NCBI RefSeq assembly: GCF_003046625.1
Contig: NZ_QAAD01000003.1
Location: 1 to 64,000 of the forward strand
Length of the DNA: 64,000 nt
DNA from: Mangrovibacterium marinum
GTDB lineage: Bacteria; Bacteroidota; Bacteroidia; Bacteroidales; Prolixibacteraceae
Reading direction: 5' to 3'
Part shown: in pieces, positions 1 to 54,084 of the stretch
How positions within the stretch are numbered: position 1 is the first letter of the stretch
How the letters are laid out: each line of letters starts with the position of its first letter
Position numbers and translations under genes: made by a program
The notes under the pieces: model-generated
Seen by the model: the letters and a program-made list of their open reading frames with translations, nothing else
What the model was told of the DNA's origin: nothing
The model's database searches: none

Positions 1-53
1 TTGAACTCGGGAACAGCCTCGCAGGCCTGCTCCAGGTAGGACTTTCTGCTCAT
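1..53 (-). CDS. Start of an unidentified gene, cut by window edge
   Basis: An ATG at 53 on the minus strand opens a frame that runs to the window edge without a stop (17 codons, beginning MSRKSYLEQAC). It is preceded by an A+T-rich stretch, as is common for genes of this phylum. Too little is present to name a product. It reads away from the cassette at 343-1987. The call rests only on an open frame and a plausible start, so it is weak. Confidence 0.35.
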   Translation of the reverse strand, partial: MSRKSYLEQACEAVPEF

Positions 54-145
54 AATCAATTTGTTTAAAATTTAAAAGCACGAAAGTCGCAACATCCCGC
101 CAACTATTCCTATTTTTAGCTGAGCAATAAGCTCCCGCAAAGCGG

Positions 146-342
146 GTTTAGTTCAACAAGGTGTATAGCCAATAGGGCAATTAGTGATAAATTGAAAGTC
201 CTGTTCTTTGAGCAGGCAACGCCAAAACAAAGTTTTGACGTTTAACAAAAAAGAAAATTAAAAGTAAAAACGTTTGTTTTGGCTTAGTGGTAAACCGAAA
301 CTGAAGTGCTTCGAATCTGCCCTACTGTCCATACACAGAACG
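146..342 (+). repeat. attC-like long imperfect hairpin, split by the cassette at 343
   Basis: No gene is seen from 54 to 387. Nested inverted pairs are visible: GTGTAT (161-166) with ATACAC (331-336), TAGGGCA (173-179) with TGCCCTA (318-324), and GCCAAAACAAA (221-231) with TTTGTTTTGGC (273-283). The outer left arm GTTTAGTTCAA (146-156) finds its partner TTGAACTAAAC not here but at 1988-1998, on the far side of the two-gene segment. This is what an attC site looks like after a cassette has entered its GTT box: GTTCAAC at 151 fits the R'' consensus RYYYAAC. At about 200 bp it is longer than most attC sites. Confidence 0.6.
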
Positions 343-387
343 TTATGCCCAATTTGAAAAAGATGAAATAACCTAAAATATACCACT

Positions 388-1197
388 ATGAAAAAAACAA
401 TATTTTTATTACTAATCACACTCTTACTTGCTTCTTGTACAAAGAAAATAGATGGTACATCTGAAGAAGCTATGAAAGAATCAATTGAAAAAGTAAAATC
501 ATCTCTTGATGATAAAGACAAAAAAGAATTCGAAGAAGCATTACAAATAATAATGCTAAATGGAGTTGACTTTAGCAACTTACTGTCTGAAAATGGGGTT
601 AAAGAAACCGTTGGAGATATAAGAAATAAACTAAATGGAATGACAGCTTCGGATGTAATCAAGGAGGGAGAACGAATTAAAGTTGAAATTGAATTAAAAA
701 AGAAACAACAGGCAAAAGATGAAATTATAGAATTGTATGCAAAAAAAGAAAAAGCAGAACAAGCCAAACATGAACTTGATAAATTCAAAGTAAAACGTTC
801 TAGATTCTATAAAAGAAAACAAGGCACATATTTCATAACAGAAGAACCAATTATCGAACTTACTGTTTTTAACGGAACCGAACATGCTGTTTCAAGGGCA
901 TATTTCACGGGAATTCTTTCTAGTCCAAATCGTTCAGTTCCTTGGTTAAAGGATGATTTTAATTATCAAATTGCTGGAGGTTTAGAACCAGGAGAAGAAG
1001 TTACCTGGCGACTAGCACCAAATAGTTTTGGAGAATGGGGAACTGTTGATGCACCAAAGGATGCAATTTTAATTGTAGAAGTAAAAAAACTTGATGGTGC
1101 TGATGGCGAAACATTGTTTTCAGTTGATGATTTCGATGAATATGACAAAGACAGGTTAGAAGAATTATTAAAGGCATACCCAGAATTCAAAAAATAG
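388..1197 (+). CDS. Lipoprotein of unknown function (cassette gene 1)
   Basis: The product has 269 residues with a lipoprotein signal ending LLASC, so Cys17 would be lipidated and the protein held in an envelope membrane. After the signal come a charged segment, a Lys/Glu-rich helical stretch at about residues 85-125 that may form a coiled coil, and a C-terminal part (about 130-269) with alternating hydrophobic strands. The start of the mature protein (KIDGTSEEAMKESIEKVK) resembles small DUF6694-type lipoproteins; this is a memory-based resemblance. The next gene follows after 43 bases to its ATG, so the two are probably co-transcribed. The gene is A+T-rich compared with the chromosome at 2.3 kb onward, consistent with recent transfer. 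Confidence 0.8.
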   Translation: MKKTIFLLLITLLLASCTKKIDGTSEEAMKESIEKVKSSLDDKDKKEFEEALQIIMLNGVDFSNLLSENGVKETVGDIRNKLNGMTASDVIKEGERIKVEIELKKKQQAKDEIIELYAKKEKAEQAKHELDKFKVKRSRFYKRKQGTYFITEEPIIELTVFNGTEHAVSRAYFTGILSSPNRSVPWLKDDFNYQIAGGLEPGEEVTWRLAPNSFGEWGTVDAPKDAILIVEVKKLDGADGETLFSVDDFDEYDKDRLEELLKAYPEFKK

Positions 1198-1240
1198 ATT
1201 TGAACTAAAGAAATTGACAGTCATTTTTAAATTATTAAAT

Positions 1241-1921
1241 ATGTCAACACCTACAATTCCTGACTGGATAAGCGCGGCATCATCTTTTTTGAGTATTCCT
1301 ATTATTATTTGGGGGATAGTTAAAATATTTAAAAAGGATAAAAATCAAGAGAGAAAAATAAATTCACTAGAAAATCTGGCGATATCTCAAGATGAGATGA
1401 TAAAAAAAATGACAGAACAAATTAATGAACTGGCAAAACAAACATCTGAGTATCAATTCCAATCCGTATTAATGAAAGAGTCGAACAGTTTAATTAGTAA
1501 ACAAATCGAATTACAAAATGACATTTTCCTTCATAACAAAGGCATTGAAGAAAAGAAACTTGAAATTCAGGAAATTAAAAGACTTAGTGAAATTAAACCA
1601 CATTTTACAAATAATGGAGGTTCTGGTAGCTCATCAAACTTTTTAATTAATCTTAAAAATAAAGGATTTACAGCTAGAAATTTAAGACTAAATAAAATCC
1701 GTGGAGAATTTATAATCTTTGAAAAATTGAATCCAGAAGTAGAAATTGACAGTGGCAAGAATATTGAAATTAAAGCGAATATTACTCCGTCAGGCAGAAA
1801 CCAAGACAATGGAAATAGAGATTATGAAATTGAATTGCTATTTGAAGATATTGACGGGAATAAGTACAAACAAAAAATAGAAAATAGGAAAATTGGAAAT
1901 CCTGAATTGATTAAAGAATAA
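1241..1921 (+). CDS. Membrane-anchored coiled-coil protein of unknown function (cassette gene 2)
   Basis: I take the ATG at 1241; an in-frame TTG at 1214 would add nine residues. The 226-residue product has one N-terminal hydrophobic segment (about residues 9-26, rich in Ile and Trp), followed by a long charged stretch (about 30-120) with heptad-like hydrophobic spacing that suggests a coiled coil, then a C-terminal domain of probable beta strands. This layout suits a protein anchored in the inner membrane with a projecting domain. No catalytic motif is seen and I do not recognise the family. It is the second gene of the cassette, and the attC-like site begins only five bases after its stop codon. 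A+T content is high, as in gene 1. Confidence 0.75.
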   Translation: MSTPTIPDWISAASSFLSIPIIIWGIVKIFKKDKNQERKINSLENLAISQDEMIKKMTEQINELAKQTSEYQFQSVLMKESNSLISKQIELQNDIFLHNKGIEEKKLEIQEIKRLSEIKPHFTNNGGSGSSSNFLINLKNKGFTARNLRLNKIRGEFIIFEKLNPEVEIDSGKNIEIKANITPSGRNQDNGNRDYEIELLFEDIDGNKYKQKIENRKIGNPELIKE

Positions 1922-1925
1922 AAAC

Positions 1926-1998
1926 TGGGCATAACACTTAGCCTCTAATCAAGCGTTGCTTGCATACGCTTGGCATTGGAGGCTTTGTTGAACTAAAC
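1926..1998 (+). repeat. Cassette attC and the recombination junction
   Basis: TGGGCATAAC (1926-1935), a roughly 43-base imperfect hairpin (1941-1983) and GTTGAAC (1987-1993) lie in the order R''-stem-R' of an attC site. GTTGAAC fits GTTRRRY exactly. The last 11 bases TTGAACTAAAC match the complement of 146-156, the arm of the older site on the left. Confidence 0.65.
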
Positions 1999-2306
1999 AC
2001 TGCCCCTGGCTTAACCGACTGTTAATTAACTATTTTCGGATAGTGTTTTCAATCGGTTTTTTGTTTCCCTTTCGGAAGGCGTTTGGGGTGGTATTGTTGG
2101 CCTTTCAAGCCCGGTTTTGGCTGCAAAACCGACTATGCCGGCCAAATAGCTTCTGCTTTGACCCTGTTTTCGGCAGCAAGGGGCTTTTCCGGCAAGCGGG
2201 TTTGACAGCCGAACACAACTCCCCCCCCCAAAAAAAAACACCATACAAGCTCAGCTGCGCCGTAAAGCACGACGATAGAAGCCGCCTGCTATTGGCTCCG
2301 TCTCCC
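1999..2306. other. Intergenic stretch with a C9-A9 homopolymer tract
   Basis: No gene is supported here. Nine C followed by nine A occupy 2221-2238, just downstream of the stop codon of the DUF748 gene on the minus strand. Such tracts are prone to slippage, but this one lies in no promoter or reading frame that I can support. Confidence 0.6.
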
Positions 2307-4457
2307 CTACTTCAACGAAACCTCCACTTTAAACTCGGGTCGACGGATTTCGTCCGGTAGGTTTTCCAGATCGGCAACACCCACATAAATATTCCCGGCC
2401 GGGATTTGTTGCTCCGCAAAGTAGTCGCTAATCATCCGGTTGCGCTGTTGCAGCAGCTCTACAAACGCTTGGTTAAGCTGGTTGTCCGGAATATATTTAG
2501 AGCAAGCCACCTCCACATCCAGCGAATCGGCTGCGGGGAGTTTCGCATTCAGGAATTGTCTGAATTTGCTATCGTCGTCAGTCGGTAAATCCACCACATT
2601 TTGTTCAGCCATATAATTCGCCTTGGCCAGTTTCACCGCCAGTTTTTCTTTCTCGAGTTCTTCGTTGGTCCGCTGAATGAAAGTCACCAGCAAATCGGGC
2701 TTCTTCTGCATAATTTGAGCCAACGAGGCCAGCGTTTTCAACTGATCATTTTCGAGCGTATCCTGCAAATAGGCCAGGTTCAGGTACTCCATCTTCTCGG
2801 GGTCGGTACCCACCAGGCCGGCCATCGCTTTAAAGGGTGACAACGCTGCCTTGGACAACACATTCACAAAAGCGCCCCAGATTATTTTCCCGAGTTTGAA
2901 TTTCGGATCATCAGTCGATCCGCTCACCGGCATATTGATATCGATATTGTCCTTGGCATCCTTCATCACATAAAGCGCCAGCCGAACCGGCACCTTCACA
3001 TAAGGTTTATCGCCGGTTTTCTTTCCAAACTCCAACTCACCAACATGGATGTCGTTTTCATTTTGAAGCTTTCCGTTGGCCATTTTCACCCGGATGGCAT
3101 AGCTGAACCAGCCTTGGGTAAAAGGCGATGCAATGTTATATTCGGAATAAGGCGAGAAACTCACTAGGTCAACATTCTGCAACTTTCCATCCAGGTAAAA
3201 ATCGAAGGGATCCTGCATGTTCACCATTGTTTGGCCGGAAAAACGGCCCGACTTGTTAATTTTTGTGTTAAAGCTGATGGGCATGCGGGTTGAACTGTCC
3301 GACAAATTCTGCAATTCCACATTCAATTCCGTCAAGTCAATCGTACAGGTGCGGTTCAAGGTGTGGTCGGCAAAACGGAGCGATCCGCGGTTCACCTTCA
3401 GCGTGTCAACCCGGTAGCTCGTTGTTTGTTGGTCGCCCTTCTCCATGGTTAGCTGCACAAGCTGGGTCGTATCTTCGGCCAGCAAAGGCGCAAAAAACTG
3501 CTCTACATTGGTCTGTTCCTTTCCGCGCGTCACCGCCAATGCTGGTTGATCAATCTCTATCGACGAAAAATTGAAGGCGTAATTTTTCAGATCAAGCTCT
3601 TTGATCCGGCTCCGTATTTCGGGCACCGACAACAGTGTTTCGCCTTGCCCGTCAATCACCGAAGCATTGCTAAGTTTCCCCCAGCCGGTAATCTGCACAT
3701 TCATTAAATCCGCCAAACTTCCCGAGATGTGAATATCTGAAGTCAACAAACCACGAATCGAGCTGACATCAAAATAGTCCGTCAGGTAGTTGCTCACCGG
3801 CTTAATCTGCACATCGGTTGTACTTAGGTCAACCGTATAGCATTGCTTTTGCTGATCCACCAAGGCATTCACCTGCACTGTTCCCTGCTCTCCCAAATGA
3901 AAACCGGCGCCTACGGTCGACTGATGATTATCCCAGGCGATCAGCGGCAAACTAAAATCCAAATTGCTAACCGTAATTCGGTTTTCAACCGTCTGATCAT
4001 ACAAGCGTATTTTTCCGCCCGTCATTTTAAGATTATACAAACTAAAGCGAATCAATTGGTCACTTGTGTTTTCCGCTACTGCCAGGCTGTCGTCTTCCGG
4101 AATTAAGTCGCTGAAATTATATCCATCGGCGTATTGTTCAATGCTAAGCTGTGGCTCAACCAGGCTGATTTGCGAAAACGAATATTCGCGATGCAACAAC
4201 TTCCAGGGGCTGAAATCAACCGTCAACGATTGAAAAGCGATGAAACTGTCCACCTGATTTTTCTCGTACAGAACCACCCCTTCAGCTGAGACCGCCGCCT
4301 TCCAGTAATTGAAATGTAGTTCCTTAATCGCTAATTTACGGCCTGTTAACCCGGGGCTGTTCTTCACCAGGTAATTTTTCACCATCGACGATAAAAAGAA
4401 TAAAAGGGCTGCAACAATCAACAACAGTCCACCGGCTACGTAGTATCGTTTCTTCAT
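2307..4457 (-). CDS. AsmA-like DUF748 membrane protein
   Basis: This 716-residue protein begins with a single transmembrane helix (about residues 5-26) and continues as a large extracytoplasmic part. The opening of that part, where a residue run on LAIKELHFNYWKA leads into beta-rich repeats, and the overall build match the DUF748/AsmA-like family, whose members are thought to act in envelope or outer-membrane lipid homeostasis. The last 130 residues contain a helical segment of the kind seen at the DUF748 C-terminus (SKYIPDNQLNQAF and AGNIYVGVADLENLP). No catalytic residues are apparent. A TACTTTTG box at 4506-4513 on the minus strand lies about 50 bases upstream of the ATG. It stands alone; the divergent neighbour is the rRNA methyltransferase. 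Confidence 0.85.
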   Translation of the reverse strand: MKKRYYVAGGLLLIVAALLFFLSSMVKNYLVKNSPGLTGRKLAIKELHFNYWKAAVSAEGVVLYEKNQVDSFIAFQSLTVDFSPWKLLHREYSFSQISLVEPQLSIEQYADGYNFSDLIPEDDSLAVAENTSDQLIRFSLYNLKMTGGKIRLYDQTVENRITVSNLDFSLPLIAWDNHQSTVGAGFHLGEQGTVQVNALVDQQKQCYTVDLSTTDVQIKPVSNYLTDYFDVSSIRGLLTSDIHISGSLADLMNVQITGWGKLSNASVIDGQGETLLSVPEIRSRIKELDLKNYAFNFSSIEIDQPALAVTRGKEQTNVEQFFAPLLAEDTTQLVQLTMEKGDQQTTSYRVDTLKVNRGSLRFADHTLNRTCTIDLTELNVELQNLSDSSTRMPISFNTKINKSGRFSGQTMVNMQDPFDFYLDGKLQNVDLVSFSPYSEYNIASPFTQGWFSYAIRVKMANGKLQNENDIHVGELEFGKKTGDKPYVKVPVRLALYVMKDAKDNIDINMPVSGSTDDPKFKLGKIIWGAFVNVLSKAALSPFKAMAGLVGTDPEKMEYLNLAYLQDTLENDQLKTLASLAQIMQKKPDLLVTFIQRTNEELEKEKLAVKLAKANYMAEQNVVDLPTDDDSKFRQFLNAKLPAADSLDVEVACSKYIPDNQLNQAFVELLQQRNRMISDYFAEQQIPAGNIYVGVADLENLPDEIRRPEFKVEVSLK

Positions 4458-13224: not shown

Positions 13225-14649
13225 CTATTTCAAGCCGGAAGAATCGTAGGGTATAAGCCGCAATATTTTCCCGGGATTTTCAATGGCCACATACACATAA
13301 CCGTCGGGACTCATTTCAACATTGCGCACACGGCCAATCCCTTCCAATAACTTTTCGTGATGAATCACCTCATATCCATCCAGGACAAGCCGCTCGAGAT
13401 ATTGAAACCGCAGCGACCCGATCAAAATATTATTCTTCCAGTTCGGATAGCGGTTTCCTTTCACGAAGGTCATCCCGCAGGGCGCGATCGATGGCACCCA
13501 ATAGGTCAGTGGCTGCTCCATGCCTTCTTTCGCTGTCAGGTCGGTAAATTTTGTTCCATTATAGTTGATGCCATACGAAATAACCGGCCATCCATAGTTA
13601 AGCCCCGGACGAATCAGATTTAGCTCGTCGCCTCCCATCGGACCATGTTCGGATTCAAAAATCTCACCTGTTTCCGGATTCATACAGGTGCCCTGCGGGT
13701 TGCGGTGTCCATAAGAATAAATCGAGGCCATCGCTCCCGGCGTACCCACAAAAGGATTGTCGGCAGGAATAGAGCCGTCATCCTCAATCCGGTGTATTTT
13801 GCCGGCATGGTTCGATAAACTCTGCGGATTTTCATCGCGGTTTCCCCGGTCACCCACGCCAAAATAGAGATAGCCTTCGCGATCGAACTCCAGCTTGCAG
13901 CCCCAGTGATGTCCTTTGGCAGAAGATGGTGTTCCCTGAAAAATGATTTGCTGATCAACGAGTCGATTTCCATCCAGCCGGGCACGCATAATATTTGTGC
14001 ATCCCTGCCTCGGATCATCATCCGACAAAGCCGAATAGGCCAAATACAGCCATCCGTTGTTGACATAATCCGGGTGAAGTTCCAGATCCAGCAAGCCCCC
14101 CTGTCCTTTAGCCATGATCTCGGGAAGACCTGTAATCTTCTGTAATTCGCCACCGGTAAAGCGCAACAACTCCCCCGCCCGCTCGGAGATCAACAAATCG
14201 CCGCTGGGCAAAAACTCCAGCCCCCAGGGGACGTGCAGCCCGCTGACAACGGTATCGACCAAAAACGTTTGCTGTTCCGACTCAACCAAATCACCTTCGG
14301 AAAGGGCAGGCTTCAGCTTATCCGGATTTTCCGACACCCCGGCTTTCACATAAGCGGCCAAAGCTCGGATCTCGTCCTCCGAAAAAGTGACCCCGAAAGC
14401 GGGCATGCCCATTTCTTCGCGCCCCAACCGGATGCTCCGGACAACATTGTCGATGTCGTCGCCATACATCCAGTCTTTATGTTCAAATTTTTCGAGATTC
14501 GTGCCGTGACAGCCGGCGCAGTACTGTTGATAATTCTTTGCAGCTAAGGCCTGTTCCTGTGCGCTAATCTGTCCGTTTCCGCCCGTACAGGCAAACAAGA
14601 ACATCGTCGCCAACAGGATTCCCAAAAAGGAAAATCGTTTTTTCATCAT
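13225..14649 (-). CDS. PQQ-type sugar dehydrogenase with N-terminal cytochrome c domain, lipoprotein
   Basis: The 474-residue product has a lipoprotein signal ending LFAC (Cys21). A cytochrome c domain follows, with the haem motif CAGCH at 44-48 and a likely Met ligand in MGMPAFG near 85. From about 125 to the end it is a glucose/sorbosone dehydrogenase-like beta propeller of the aldose sugar dehydrogenase (YliI/Asd) group, with VPWGLEFLPSGDLL, RNPQG, ESEHGPMGGDELN and NYGWP. It would oxidise an aldose to a lactone outside the inner membrane and pass electrons to the fused haem. The lactonase gene lies 65 bases upstream in the same direction. PQQ use is inferred from the family; no PQQ biosynthesis genes are in the window. 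Confidence 0.87.
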   Translation of the reverse strand: MMKKRFSFLGILLATMFLFACTGGNGQISAQEQALAAKNYQQYCAGCHGTNLEKFEHKDWMYGDDIDNVVRSIRLGREEMGMPAFGVTFSEDEIRALAAYVKAGVSENPDKLKPALSEGDLVESEQQTFLVDTVVSGLHVPWGLEFLPSGDLLISERAGELLRFTGGELQKITGLPEIMAKGQGGLLDLELHPDYVNNGWLYLAYSALSDDDPRQGCTNIMRARLDGNRLVDQQIIFQGTPSSAKGHHWGCKLEFDREGYLYFGVGDRGNRDENPQSLSNHAGKIHRIEDDGSIPADNPFVGTPGAMASIYSYGHRNPQGTCMNPETGEIFESEHGPMGGDELNLIRPGLNYGWPVISYGINYNGTKFTDLTAKEGMEQPLTYWVPSIAPCGMTFVKGNRYPNWKNNILIGSLRFQYLERLVLDGYEVIHHEKLLEGIGRVRNVEMSPDGYVYVAIENPGKILRLIPYDSSGLK

Positions 14650-14653
14650 GCGA

Positions 14654-14671
14654 TAGGATTTTTAAATCCTA
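14654..14671 (-). promoter_or_regulatory. Palindrome just upstream of the dehydrogenase start
   Basis: TAGGATT and AATCCTA flank a four-base spacer, 5 to 22 bases before the start codon. It could be an operator or a leader hairpin that limits translation. There is no other evidence. Confidence 0.3.
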
Positions 14672-14714
14672 ACAAGCAATAGGCAAAAATGTTAGCCGAC
14701 GAACCTGTTCATTT

Positions 14715-15845
14715 CTACTGCTCCCGAAACTTCAGACAAACCGGACTCGGAATTTGGTAATTTTTTCCGGTGAAGGTCAACCGACCGCTTTGCTCATCGC
14801 GGGCAAATACGGCAATATTGTTACTGTACTGATTGGCGACCAGCACAAACTTTCCATCGGGCGACAACACAAAATTACGCGGCCAGTTTCCCTGCACCGG
14901 TTCATTTTGAATGATCGACAGAGATCCATCATCCGTGTTTCGCGCAAAAACGGAAAGCGTATTCTGCCCTCGGTTCGAACAGTAAACAAAGCGCTCGTCA
15001 CCACTCAGATGAATGTCGGCCCCGGCTTTGGTGCCTTCAAAATCAGCAGGCAAACTCGATACCGAGCTGACGAGTTCATAGCCTTCATCCCCCTTTTTCA
15101 GCACACTAACCGTCGATGCCATCTCATTCATAACATAGATGTACTGCATATCGCGGGTATAGGCAAAATGCCGCGGACCGGCACCCGGCTCCATCTGTAC
15201 GGAAGCCGGGGAGGCTGGAACGTAAGTCATGGAGTCCGGCAGGGAGCGGTAAAAAAACAATTTATCCAAACCCAAATCAGCAGTCATCAACAGCCTTCCA
15301 TCGGCCGAAAACTGCGATGAGTGGGCATGTGGCCCTTGTTGACGAATGGTATCGGGCCCTGAGCCTTCGTGCTGAATCAGTTGCGACATCTCCGCCAGAC
15401 TTCCGTCTCGATTCACCGAATAAATGCTGATGCTGCCGCTGGTATAGTTTGAAGCCACCAGCGTTGCTCCATCCGGCGAAAGGCAAACATGACAAGGATG
15501 ATTCCCCTGTGTTGCAAGCTGGTTTAACCGGCTAAGTGTTCCGTCCTTTTCAATTTTATAAGCCGTAACCGAACCGCTGTCCTGATTCTCGAAATTGTCC
15601 GTTTCTCCAACGGCATACAGTTTTTTCCGATCAGGCGAAAGGCAAATAAACGACGGATTTTCGCGATTCGATGTCACGCTTTGATAACGCAAATCACCGT
15701 TTTCCGGATCAAACGAATACGCATAGATCCCTTCACTATTTTCAACCGAATAGGTTCCCACGTAAAGCGTAAGCATCTTCTTCTCGGGTGTACACGCAAC
15801 AAACAAGATCAACAAAGCGCTGATCAACAGCGAATAGAATTTCAT
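14715..15845 (-). CDS. Lactonase, seven-bladed propeller (6-phosphogluconolactonase-like), lipoprotein
   Basis: The ATG at 15845 gives 376 residues with a proper lipoprotein signal (MKFYSLLIS ... LFVAC); the ATG at 15863 would add six residues before it. The mature protein has repeated LSPDG-type blades, for example ICLSPDRKKLYAVGE, CHVCLSPDG, PRHFAYTRDMQYIYVMNE and NFVLSPDGKFVLVANQ, which mark the lactonase family PF10282. Family members hydrolyse sugar lactones. Export and the downstream sugar dehydrogenase suggest that it opens the lactone which that enzyme forms, instead of acting in the pentose phosphate pathway. It is the first gene of a two-gene unit and is divergent from the SMP-30 gene. 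Substrate is unproven. Confidence 0.87.
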   Translation of the reverse strand: MKFYSLLISALLILFVACTPEKKMLTLYVGTYSVENSEGIYAYSFDPENGDLRYQSVTSNRENPSFICLSPDRKKLYAVGETDNFENQDSGSVTAYKIEKDGTLSRLNQLATQGNHPCHVCLSPDGATLVASNYTSGSISIYSVNRDGSLAEMSQLIQHEGSGPDTIRQQGPHAHSSQFSADGRLLMTADLGLDKLFFYRSLPDSMTYVPASPASVQMEPGAGPRHFAYTRDMQYIYVMNEMASTVSVLKKGDEGYELVSSVSSLPADFEGTKAGADIHLSGDERFVYCSNRGQNTLSVFARNTDDGSLSIIQNEPVQGNWPRNFVLSPDGKFVLVANQYSNNIAVFARDEQSGRLTFTGKNYQIPSPVCLKFREQ

Positions 15846-52466: not shown

Positions 52467-52475
52467 TCTTTATTG

Positions 52476-52548
52476 AGCGGGAGACGGGGATCAAACCCGC
52501 GACCCTTAGCTTGGAAGGCTAATGCTCTATCAGCTGAGCTACTCCCGC
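52476..52548 (-). tRNA. tRNA-Gly(TCC), copy 1 (last in transcript)
   Basis: Minus-strand GCGGGAG acceptor pairs with CTCCCGC; anticodon TCC is in the loop of TAGCCTTCCAAGCTA. D- and T-arms are intact. The 73-base gene has no encoded CCA. Identical to the copies at 53048 and 53623. Confidence 0.95.
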
Positions 52549-52626
52549 TAATCAGTCGAAAATCCAAAGAACAAAGTCCGGAAACCAGATTTGGAATTTC
52601 AGCCTTGAAAGTTGGAATTTCAACAA

Positions 52627-52712
52627 TGGTGGGGAGAGCAGGATTCGAACCTACGAAGACGAAAGTCAGCGGAGTTACAGTCCGCCCCAGTTGGCCACTT
52701 TGGTATCTCCCC
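52627..52712 (-). tRNA. tRNA-Tyr(GTA), copy 1, with encoded CCA
   Basis: Acceptor GGGGAGA pairs with TCTCCCC; anticodon GTA in ACTGTAACT; long variable arm. The discriminator A is followed by an encoded CCA (52627-52629 on the minus strand). Confidence 0.95.
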
Positions 52713-52866
52713 AAATAGAATGTCAGAAGAGCAGAATTTCAGAAGATCAGGAGATCTTCAAAACCCGGCTTCGTTATTCTTCACTATTTTTTATGAACTT
52801 CGTCGGACACCTTCCGGATAAACATTCAAATTGTCTACCCTTTCAATATTCCAACCTTCTTTTTTG

Positions 52867-52940
52867 AGCCGGATCACAGATTCGAACTGTGGACCCCGAG
52901 ATTACAAATCACGTGCTCTGGCCAACTGAGCTAATCCGGC
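52867..52940 (-). tRNA. tRNA-Thr(TGT), copy 1, GC variant in acceptor
   Basis: Acceptor GCCGGAT pairs with ATCCGGC; anticodon TGT in the loop TTTGTAA. The anticodon stem CGTGA/TCTCG contains one T-T mismatch. No encoded CCA. Differs from the other two copies by a compensated base pair in the acceptor. Confidence 0.95.
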
Positions 52941-53047
52941 TTTACCAAATCGATTGCTTAAATTAAGCACCGCTGTTCTTGCAGTTTCTTTAGAACGAAG
53001 CCCCCCGGTAAATGAAGGAACATCAAAAATAGATCGCTCTTTTAGTG

Positions 53048-53120
53048 AGCGGGAGACGGGGATCAAACCCGCGACCCTTAGCTTGGAAGGCTAATGCTCT
53101 ATCAGCTGAGCTACTCCCGC
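53048..53120 (-). tRNA. tRNA-Gly(TCC), copy 2
   Basis: Same sequence as copy 1, 572 bases further along. No encoded CCA. Confidence 0.95.
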
Positions 53121-53198
53121 TAATCAGTCAAAAATCCGGGAAACAAAGTTCAAAAGCCAGATTTGGAATTTGAGCCTTGAGATTTGGAATTTCAACAG

Positions 53199-53284
53199 TG
53201 GTGGGGAGAGCAGGATTCGAACCTACGAAGACGAAAGTCAGCGGAGTTACAGTCCGCCCCAGTTGGCCACTTTGGTATCTCCCC
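53199..53284 (-). tRNA. tRNA-Tyr(GTA), copy 2, with encoded CCA
   Basis: Same sequence as copy 1 including the encoded CCA (53199-53201). Confidence 0.95.
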
Positions 53285-53438
53285 AAATAGAATGTCAGAA
53301 GAGTAGAATTTTAGACGATCAAAATATCTTCAAAAACTCCGCTTCTTTATTCTTCAATATTTCTCAGAACTTTGGTTGAAACCGTCCGGGTAAACATTTA
53401 ATTTCTTTACCCTTCAAATATTTCAACTTTCATTTTTG

Positions 53439-53512
53439 AGCCGAATCACAGATTCGAACTGTGGACCCCGAGATTACAAATCACGTGCTCTGGCCAACTG
53501 AGCTAATTCGGC
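53439..53512 (-). tRNA. tRNA-Thr(TGT), copy 2
   Basis: Acceptor GCCGAAT pairs with ATTCGGC, an A-T pair where copy 1 has G-C. The same T-T mismatch is in the anticodon stem. Confidence 0.95.
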
Positions 53513-53586
53513 ATCGCGAAACAGGCCGCCCAACGTAAACACAGCAATACTTGCTGTTCTTCAAGAACGAATGGCCCTCCATAAAT

Positions 53587-53617
53587 AAGGGGCTGTCAAA
53601 AAAAATGACAACCCCTT
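53587..53617 (-). other. Hairpin in tRNA spacer
   Basis: AAGGGGCTGTCA (53587-53598) and TGACAACCCCTT (53606-53617) pair across a seven-A loop, with one mismatch, between tRNA-Gly copy 3 and tRNA-Thr copy 2. It may be a processing or pausing site. Confidence 0.6.
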
Positions 53618-53622
53618 TATTG

Positions 53623-53695
53623 AGCGGGAGACGGGGATCAAACCCGCGACCCTTAGCTTGGAAGGCTAATGCTCTATCAGCTGAGCTACTCCCGC
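53623..53695 (-). tRNA. tRNA-Gly(TCC), copy 3
   Basis: Same sequence as copies 1 and 2; 575 bases beyond copy 2. Confidence 0.95.
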
Positions 53696-53773
53696 TAATC
53701 AGTTAAAAATCCAGAGAACAAGATTCAAAAGCCAAATTTGGAATTTGAGCCGTGAGATTTGGAATTTCAACAG

Positions 53774-53859
53774 TGGTGGGGAGAGCAGGATTCGAACCTA
53801 CGAAGACGAAAGTCAGCGGAGTTACAGTCCGCCCCAGTTGGCCACTTTGGTATCTCCCC
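53774..53859 (-). tRNA. tRNA-Tyr(GTA), copy 3, with encoded CCA
   Basis: Same sequence as the other two tRNA-Tyr genes, including the encoded CCA (53774-53776). Confidence 0.95.
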
Positions 53860-54010
53860 AAATAGAATGTCAGAAGATTAGAATTTCCGAAGATCAGAAG
53901 ATCTTCAAAAAACCGGCTTCTTTATTCTTCAATATTTTCAGAACTCTGGTTGAAACCGTCCGGATAAACATTCAATTTTTCACCCTTCTCATATTTCAAC
54001 TTTCATTTTG

Positions 54011-54084
54011 AGCCGAATCACAGATTCGAACTGTGGACCCCGAGATTACAAATCACGTGCTCTGGCCAACTGAGCTAATTCGGC
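54011..54084 (-). tRNA. tRNA-Thr(TGT), copy 3 (first in transcript)
   Basis: Acceptor GCCGAAT/ATTCGGC as in copy 2. It lies eight bases downstream of the SRP RNA. Confidence 0.95.

Follow-up and report, generated by a model that had tools for sequence, protein, structure and literature searches.

Close to the left end of the DNA analysed here lies a gene cassette (343-1935) that belongs, with a probability that we put at about 0.8, to a chromosomal integron, for which a tyrosine recombinase encoded on contig C31 would be the most likely agent and in which the attC site of the cassette seems to have been entered by an IS91-type element, here termed E. This DNA, referred to as the window, is the opening 64 kb of contig C3 of the 4.6-Mb genome of Mangrovibacterium marinum (61 contigs), which an SRP RNA of the Bacteroidales type assigns to the Bacteroidota, and since its position 1 is also the first base of the contig, DNA further to the left is not assembled. 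The integron as a whole would be present in the assembly in pieces, i.e. on contigs C3, C31, C39, C42 and C46. The features of the region are as follows.

1-156, minus strand: read as one end of E, with the first codons of a tyrosine recombinase (start codon at 51; the gene continues beyond the contig edge) and the DNA upstream of it; ends in GTTTAGTTCAA
155-344, plus strand: attC site (AAC at 155-157, L'' at 161-177, loop, L' at 320-336, GTT at 342-344)
343-1935, plus strand: gene cassette, from the TT of G|TT to the R'' box (mirrored ends, attC site at its start, low GC)
388-1197, plus strand: gene for a lipoprotein of 269 aa, with DUF6694 on its N-terminal side (Pfam, E 8e-14; lipoprotein signal)
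1241-1921 from ATG (1214-1921 from TTG), plus strand: second cassette gene, 226 aa (open reading frame)
1926-1935, plus strand: R'' box of the cassette, TGGGCATAAC, the reverse complement of 342-351
1936-2215, minus strand: read as the truncated other end of E, with its terminal hairpin at 1941-1983 (repeat copies; strand deduced from the end at 1-156)
2307-4457, minus strand: chromosomal neighbour gene, DUF748 (Pfam, E 3.7e-104)

Much of what the first-pass annotation had seen in this segment holds: the segment ends mirror each other exactly over ten bases (GTTATGCCCA at 342-351 is the reverse complement of TGGGCATAAC), a hairpin is present at 1941-1983, the open reading frames 388-1197 and 1241-1921 (or 1214-1921) are both directed towards it, and A+T-richness is reflected in a GC content of 30.1% for 343-1935 as against 47.8% for the window. 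That such a mirror is not expected by chance was too strong a statement, as a mirror over 10 nt is found 300-3000 bases downstream of 8 of the 1011 GTT starts in the whole window, and the mirror taken alone is weak evidence. It rises above chance because the attC site at 155-344 ends at its GTT and because mirroring recurs across loci. The proposal of an integron-type cassette thus stands as regards mirrored ends, the attC site at the start and a position at the edge of an array, and is not supported as regards the hairpin at 1941-1983 being the cassette's own attC: the start mirrors the R'' end over 10 nt, and the R'' box is then followed by the end of E. Counting the hairpin of E as its attC core would extend the cassette to 343-1987. 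Between an orphan cassette and an array edge, which had been left as alternatives, the latter is favoured, with attC 155-344 adjacent and an array and candidate integrase elsewhere in the genome, on C31.

The distribution of the genes points in the same direction. Vertical synteny in close relatives, which had been named as an argument against a cassette, is not found in the genomes searched: the DUF6694 gene at 388-1197 occurs in 1 of 120 family genomes, namely the source genome itself, and is missing from the 119 others, three congeners included. The DUF748 neighbour gene is found in all four genomes of the genus; a gene confined to its own genome beside one shared across the genus fits capture. 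A relative with an empty site and a clean G|TT junction was sought in G003 and G001 and not found, because the gene beyond DUF748 differs in both. Function searches with the cassette proteins gave nothing beyond DUF6694, and family searches with the 226-aa product returned no family over any cut-off.

An important question is what the attC sites of this genome have in common. Mirrored cassettes were detected on C31, C42, C46 and C39, one of them, on C31, being as large as 11.4 kb with ends mirroring by 9 nt and carrying genes that, as read from the open reading frames, look like metal efflux genes. A common fold was derived from six sites found by mirroring alone: AAC, three bases, six paired positions, an A, four paired positions, a second A, at least five paired positions, a loop, and a return arm with a C facing each A, followed by 5-6 bases and GTT. 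Five of the six obey this fold fully, and the sixth (C31_18717) deviates from the A.C rule at the second position; extrahelical bases are absent from five of the six, with one site showing a 1x2 mismatch, whereby the scan itself admits arms of equal length only. When the fold was scripted as a strict and a non-strict pattern, attC 155-344 was the sole strict match in the window; it ends exactly where the cassette starts, has A.C at both marker positions, is also supported by folding and takes its R'' from the end of E. In 20 shuffled windows, there were no strict matches and one non-strict match. The loci of the genome together hold eight strict sites (window 1, C46 2, C42 1, C31 4), a count that is partly circular because sites of the same genome served to design the pattern, and 563 kb of shuffled own-locus sequence (first-order Markov shuffles, three per own locus) gave none. 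Rfam has no attC-like family among its matches here; at a relaxed threshold, two weak matches to microRNA models appeared.

With the non-strict scan, A.C was found at both places in 8/8 own sites, 48/51 family sites and 15/23 others. Two A.C mismatches in the stem become G.T pairs on the bottom strand, and for the stem alone the bottom strand is the more stable one in all 82 strict sites, a result largely built in because the strict pattern demands A.C at both places. When whole sites are folded, the bottom strand is more stable in 72/82 and the top strand in 9; the A.C/G.T asymmetry would make the bottom strand the better hairpin. As to extrahelical bases, an excerpt of PMC2727003 reports that deletion of all three reduced bottom-strand recombination 6.2-fold and increased top-strand recombination. 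In the Bacteroidota sites, the two A.C mismatches may have taken the place of such bases in marking the strand to recombine.

The first-pass annotation had suggested looking for an IntI-type tyrosine recombinase, and what the genome offers is a candidate that is not IntI. Matches to PF00589 (recombinase family) lie at six places, the one on C21 being XerD, and a canonical IntI, searched for with the integron integrase model, was not found above the cut-off anywhere in the genome. The candidate on C31, a tyrosine recombinase of 393 aa, is encoded on the array strand ~8.5 kb ahead of the first attC site recognised. It scores 186.4 bits on TIGR02249, i.e. below the IntI cut-off of 265, and 191.7 bits on NF040815 (cut-off 220). 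In the region of the IntI-specific insertion, it has 24 residues as against 66 in IntI4; the insertion is also absent in 20 aligned relatives, and in the measured loci of L088-L167, all but nine, the motifs on either side are spaced 56-59 residues apart. At its N-terminus, there is an additional stretch of ~100 residues, for which Pfam gives no match and which may resemble the HARP domain. For the relative L154, a structure was predicted with a mean pLDDT of 83.0 and a pTM of 0.59; in a search with this model, the 50 matches listed are all recombinases, with XerA and IntI4 as the best structural matches among them. A quick tree of 55 rows, which settles neither the deep order nor whether the rows without the IntI insertion form a single clade, places the four IntI sequences in one clade (SH-aLRT 100) with no insertion-less row inside. 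The C31-type integrase is outside the IntI clade.

Such integrases are also found in other genomes. At E<=1e-70, C31 integrase homologues are present in 44 of 100 family genomes, that of M. marinum included, and a profile search across the phylum gave matches in 86/296 at E<=1e-85, many of them without the N-terminal stretch, both limits having been chosen by the analyst. Forty family integrase stretches (470 kb) contain 54 strict sites in 22 loci, with none in one shuffle per locus, and the 18/40 loci without a strict site are in many cases on short contigs. The 41 named loci L128-L168 add 20 strict sites in eight Bacteroidota loci, including those of Algoriphagus ornithinivorans, Winogradskyella ursingii, Seonamhaeicola aphaedonensis and Alkalitalea saponilacus; many of the 33/41 without one are again on short contigs. 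Of the 74 sites in family and named loci, 73 lie downstream of the integrase on the same strand, the exception, on the opposite strand, being a site in L093. A set of 39 loci of other recombinases (L169-L207, 684 kb), mostly Xer by search position and including IntI in L170 and L173 and the insertion-less L171, yielded no site even in the non-strict scan. As a side observation, L151, L153, L161, L162, L164 and L167 are insertion-less recombinases in records labelled archaea, Firmicutes, Spirochaetia and Magasanikbacteria, and no A.C-type site was found beside these six.

The array logic recurs as well. Among the 82 sites, neighbouring pairs mirror over 9-10 nt in 21/48 cases, compared with 0.78% of 6460 cross-locus pairs; the 27/48 neighbours without a mirror are perhaps due to missed sites between them. 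Directly behind the integrase gene, within 160 nt of its stop codon, a GTT start mirrored over 9 nt or more was found in 37/62 loci, a few of which (L120, L126, L161) look like chance, whereas a control stretch inside the integrase gene had a mirrored GTT start in 8/62. These attI-like starts correspond to the attI site beside the integrase of canonical integrons. Cassettes would be taken up at the attI-like site that follows the integrase gene and would move via folded attC sites, with G|TT as the point of cutting and joining and the C31 recombinase as the most likely enzyme acting on these sites; an integrase without the insertion and sites without clear bulges would match each other.

That the array is real and the agent a different one, i.e. 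a canonical IntI located elsewhere or lost, or the recombinase of E, is a rather unlikely alternative. The role of the C31 recombinase is read from sequence, E does encode a tyrosine recombinase of its own, and we know of no cassette recombination demonstrated for integrases other than IntI. Against this alternative, the integron integrase model finds nothing above its cut-off in this genome, and across the Bacteroidota arrays and attI-like starts track the C31-type integrase, on its strand.

The second component of the region is E. In our reading, 1-156 and 1936-2215 are opposite ends of a single element that interrupts the assembly. C46 and C39 carry copies of positions 1-158 at their ends, and a second inverted pair, GTTTAGTTCAACAA (146-159) and TTGTTGAACTAAAC (1985-1998), absent from the first-pass annotation, belongs to the ends of E. 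The hairpin and its downstream flank occur at 11 places in the genome at E below 1e-17, the window included; the others are on C39 (three), C31, C42, C44 and C46 and at C3:193.9-197.3 kb (three), and weaker copies are found on C24 (two) and C10 (one). In the relative G019, the left-hand tyrosine recombinase gene of E is complete (L049:38-922), in G029 and G001 an IS91-type transposase comes after such a recombinase, and the E relatives in L065, L066 and L090 have Y2_Tnp and Zn_Tnp_IS91 domains. In M. marinum itself, the transposase of E is identified by inference, because only a 44-aa tail is assembled, with a weak match (E 0.069).

The complete genome G029 shows how E-type elements are placed. 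They are found there at four places in two arrays, with three tandem units of 2509 bases lying in one attC (L090:8210-15737). The left flank ends in AAC at 4/4 places and mirrors the start of the preceding cassette over 9-10 nt at 3/4 (one read from the flanks), and the loose scan calls the right flank an attC core at 3/4, two of which have A.C at both places. Outside G029, the scan called an attC core behind the end of E at 5/11 copies (window, C46, C39 and two in G019); at the other 6/11 (two in G104, and G018, G102, G142 and G030) it called none, although the flanks in G142 and G030 are attC-like by eye. Often, but not always, E thus appears to be located between R'' and L'' of an attC. In the window, the R'' of the cassette is directly followed by a truncated E and no attC core of its own is left to the cassette, the displacement of that core being deduced from the other copies of E. 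The sequence of events that we propose is that an IS91-type element with its own tyrosine recombinase entered the attC of the cassette between R'' and L'' and that its truncated end with the terminal hairpin would now lie behind the cassette. In L097, L099, L112 and L089, the DNA behind the attI-like site opens with GTTGAACTAAAC, like the end of E; a tyrosine recombinase oriented in line with the array comes next in L097 and L099.

An ordinary cassette at 343-1987, with the hairpin at 1941-1983 as its own attC and closing at G1987|TT1988, is the reading of the first-pass annotation and, in our view, an unlikely one. In its favour, the stem of the hairpin is paired and flanked at its base by AAC and GTT, and a following cassette could begin with TTGAACTAAAC. 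The hairpin does not follow the A.C rule, however, and its top strand is more stable than its bottom strand (-13.5 vs -12.3), opposite to most sites. Moreover, it is constant behind differing R'' boxes, with the constant part of the repeat beginning after the variable ...AAC and running, by alignment, ~230 bases past G|TT at 1987, so that the repeat has no edge at the 1987 cut; in G029, too, the ends of E-type elements lie directly behind R''. The hairpin is thus probably not the attC of the cassette, and is better seen as the end of an IS91-type element. That there is no integron at all, the genes being cargo brought in between IS91-type ends by one-ended transposition and the mirror a matter of chance, is very improbable and largely refuted by the mirrored pairs and attI-like starts across loci: genes are flanked by ends of E on several contigs, and 10-nt mirrors do arise at the frequency given above, but mirrored attC sites lie near the integrase in other species without any E called there, and attC 155-344 terminates exactly at the cassette start.

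With the integron as the preferred reading, its resemblance to the sedentary IntI integrons of the Vibrio type is considerable, i.e. a tyrosine recombinase beside an attachment site, a one-way cassette array, mirrored R' and R'' boxes (GTT, AAC), a folded attC, and defence and toxin-antitoxin-like genes. In contrast to IntI integrons, the Bacteroidota integrase is outside the IntI clade, lacks the IntI insertion and has an N-terminal addition, the attC stems carry A.C mismatches, and the integrase gene points the same way as the cassettes and has the attI-like site after its stop codon. XerA-type recombinases (NF040815, PDB 5hxy) are the closest solved structure by sequence and fold among the matches listed, but the Bacteroidota integrases differ from XerA in being associated with cassette arrays and in the extra N-terminal stretch. 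Spirochaete reverse-oriented integrons keep the IntI domain. As described in parts of PMC9668308, they have the integrase in line with the array, as here, and are counted as IntI, unlike the Bacteroidota arrays. Relatives of E have the Y2_Tnp and Zn_Tnp_IS91 domains of the IS91 family, and insertion behind AAC is a further common feature; E differs from this family by a second gene, for a tyrosine recombinase, and by its position between R'' and L''. IS1111-attC elements and group IIC-attC introns are also mobile elements that target attC, as E would do, yet their enzymes and their position in attC differ from those of E.

We lean, if only slightly, towards a wider view in which the Bacteroidota have a phylum-wide integron class of their own, with Xer-like integrases carrying an N-terminal addition, strand choice by A.C/G.T and their own IS91-type attC parasite. 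This class would have remained uncounted because surveys require the IntI domain. In the portions available, PMC2426708 selects intI by the additional domain, PMC9668308 treats this domain as the defining character, and both cite the discovery paper, the title of which calls it necessary for activity; the IntegronFinder 2.0 paper names, in the part available, one complete integron in Bacteroidetes proper (PMC9024848). Excerpts of PMC8618304, PMC7923331 and PMC8352920 contain nothing bearing against insertion-less Bacteroidota integrons. Searches of open-licence PMC full text returned no report of Bacteroidota integrons without the IntI domain, of which an earlier description may exist elsewhere, and none of an IS91-type insertion behind the R'' of attC. 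If the system is active, the IntI domain would be dispensable for cassette capture, Bacteroidota integrons would far outnumber those reported so far, and a large stock of cassettes not yet read, some of them with defence genes, would be open to searches. The A.C/G.T positions would also offer a direct test of how a recombinase picks one strand of a hairpin.

Several genes in and around these regions may be recorded in their own right. In or near arrays, L034:14936-17539 and L015:8224-9303 (both minus strand) match the defence models PDC-S06 and SoFic, and in the C39 array two open reading frames (L015:11747-12985 and 13617-14873, plus strand) read like putative group II intron reverse transcriptases. 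Further along the window, at 52475-54084 on the minus strand, the tRNA set Gly(tcc)-Tyr(gta)-Thr(tgt) is repeated three times in tandem and adjoins a small SRP RNA of the Bacteroidales type.
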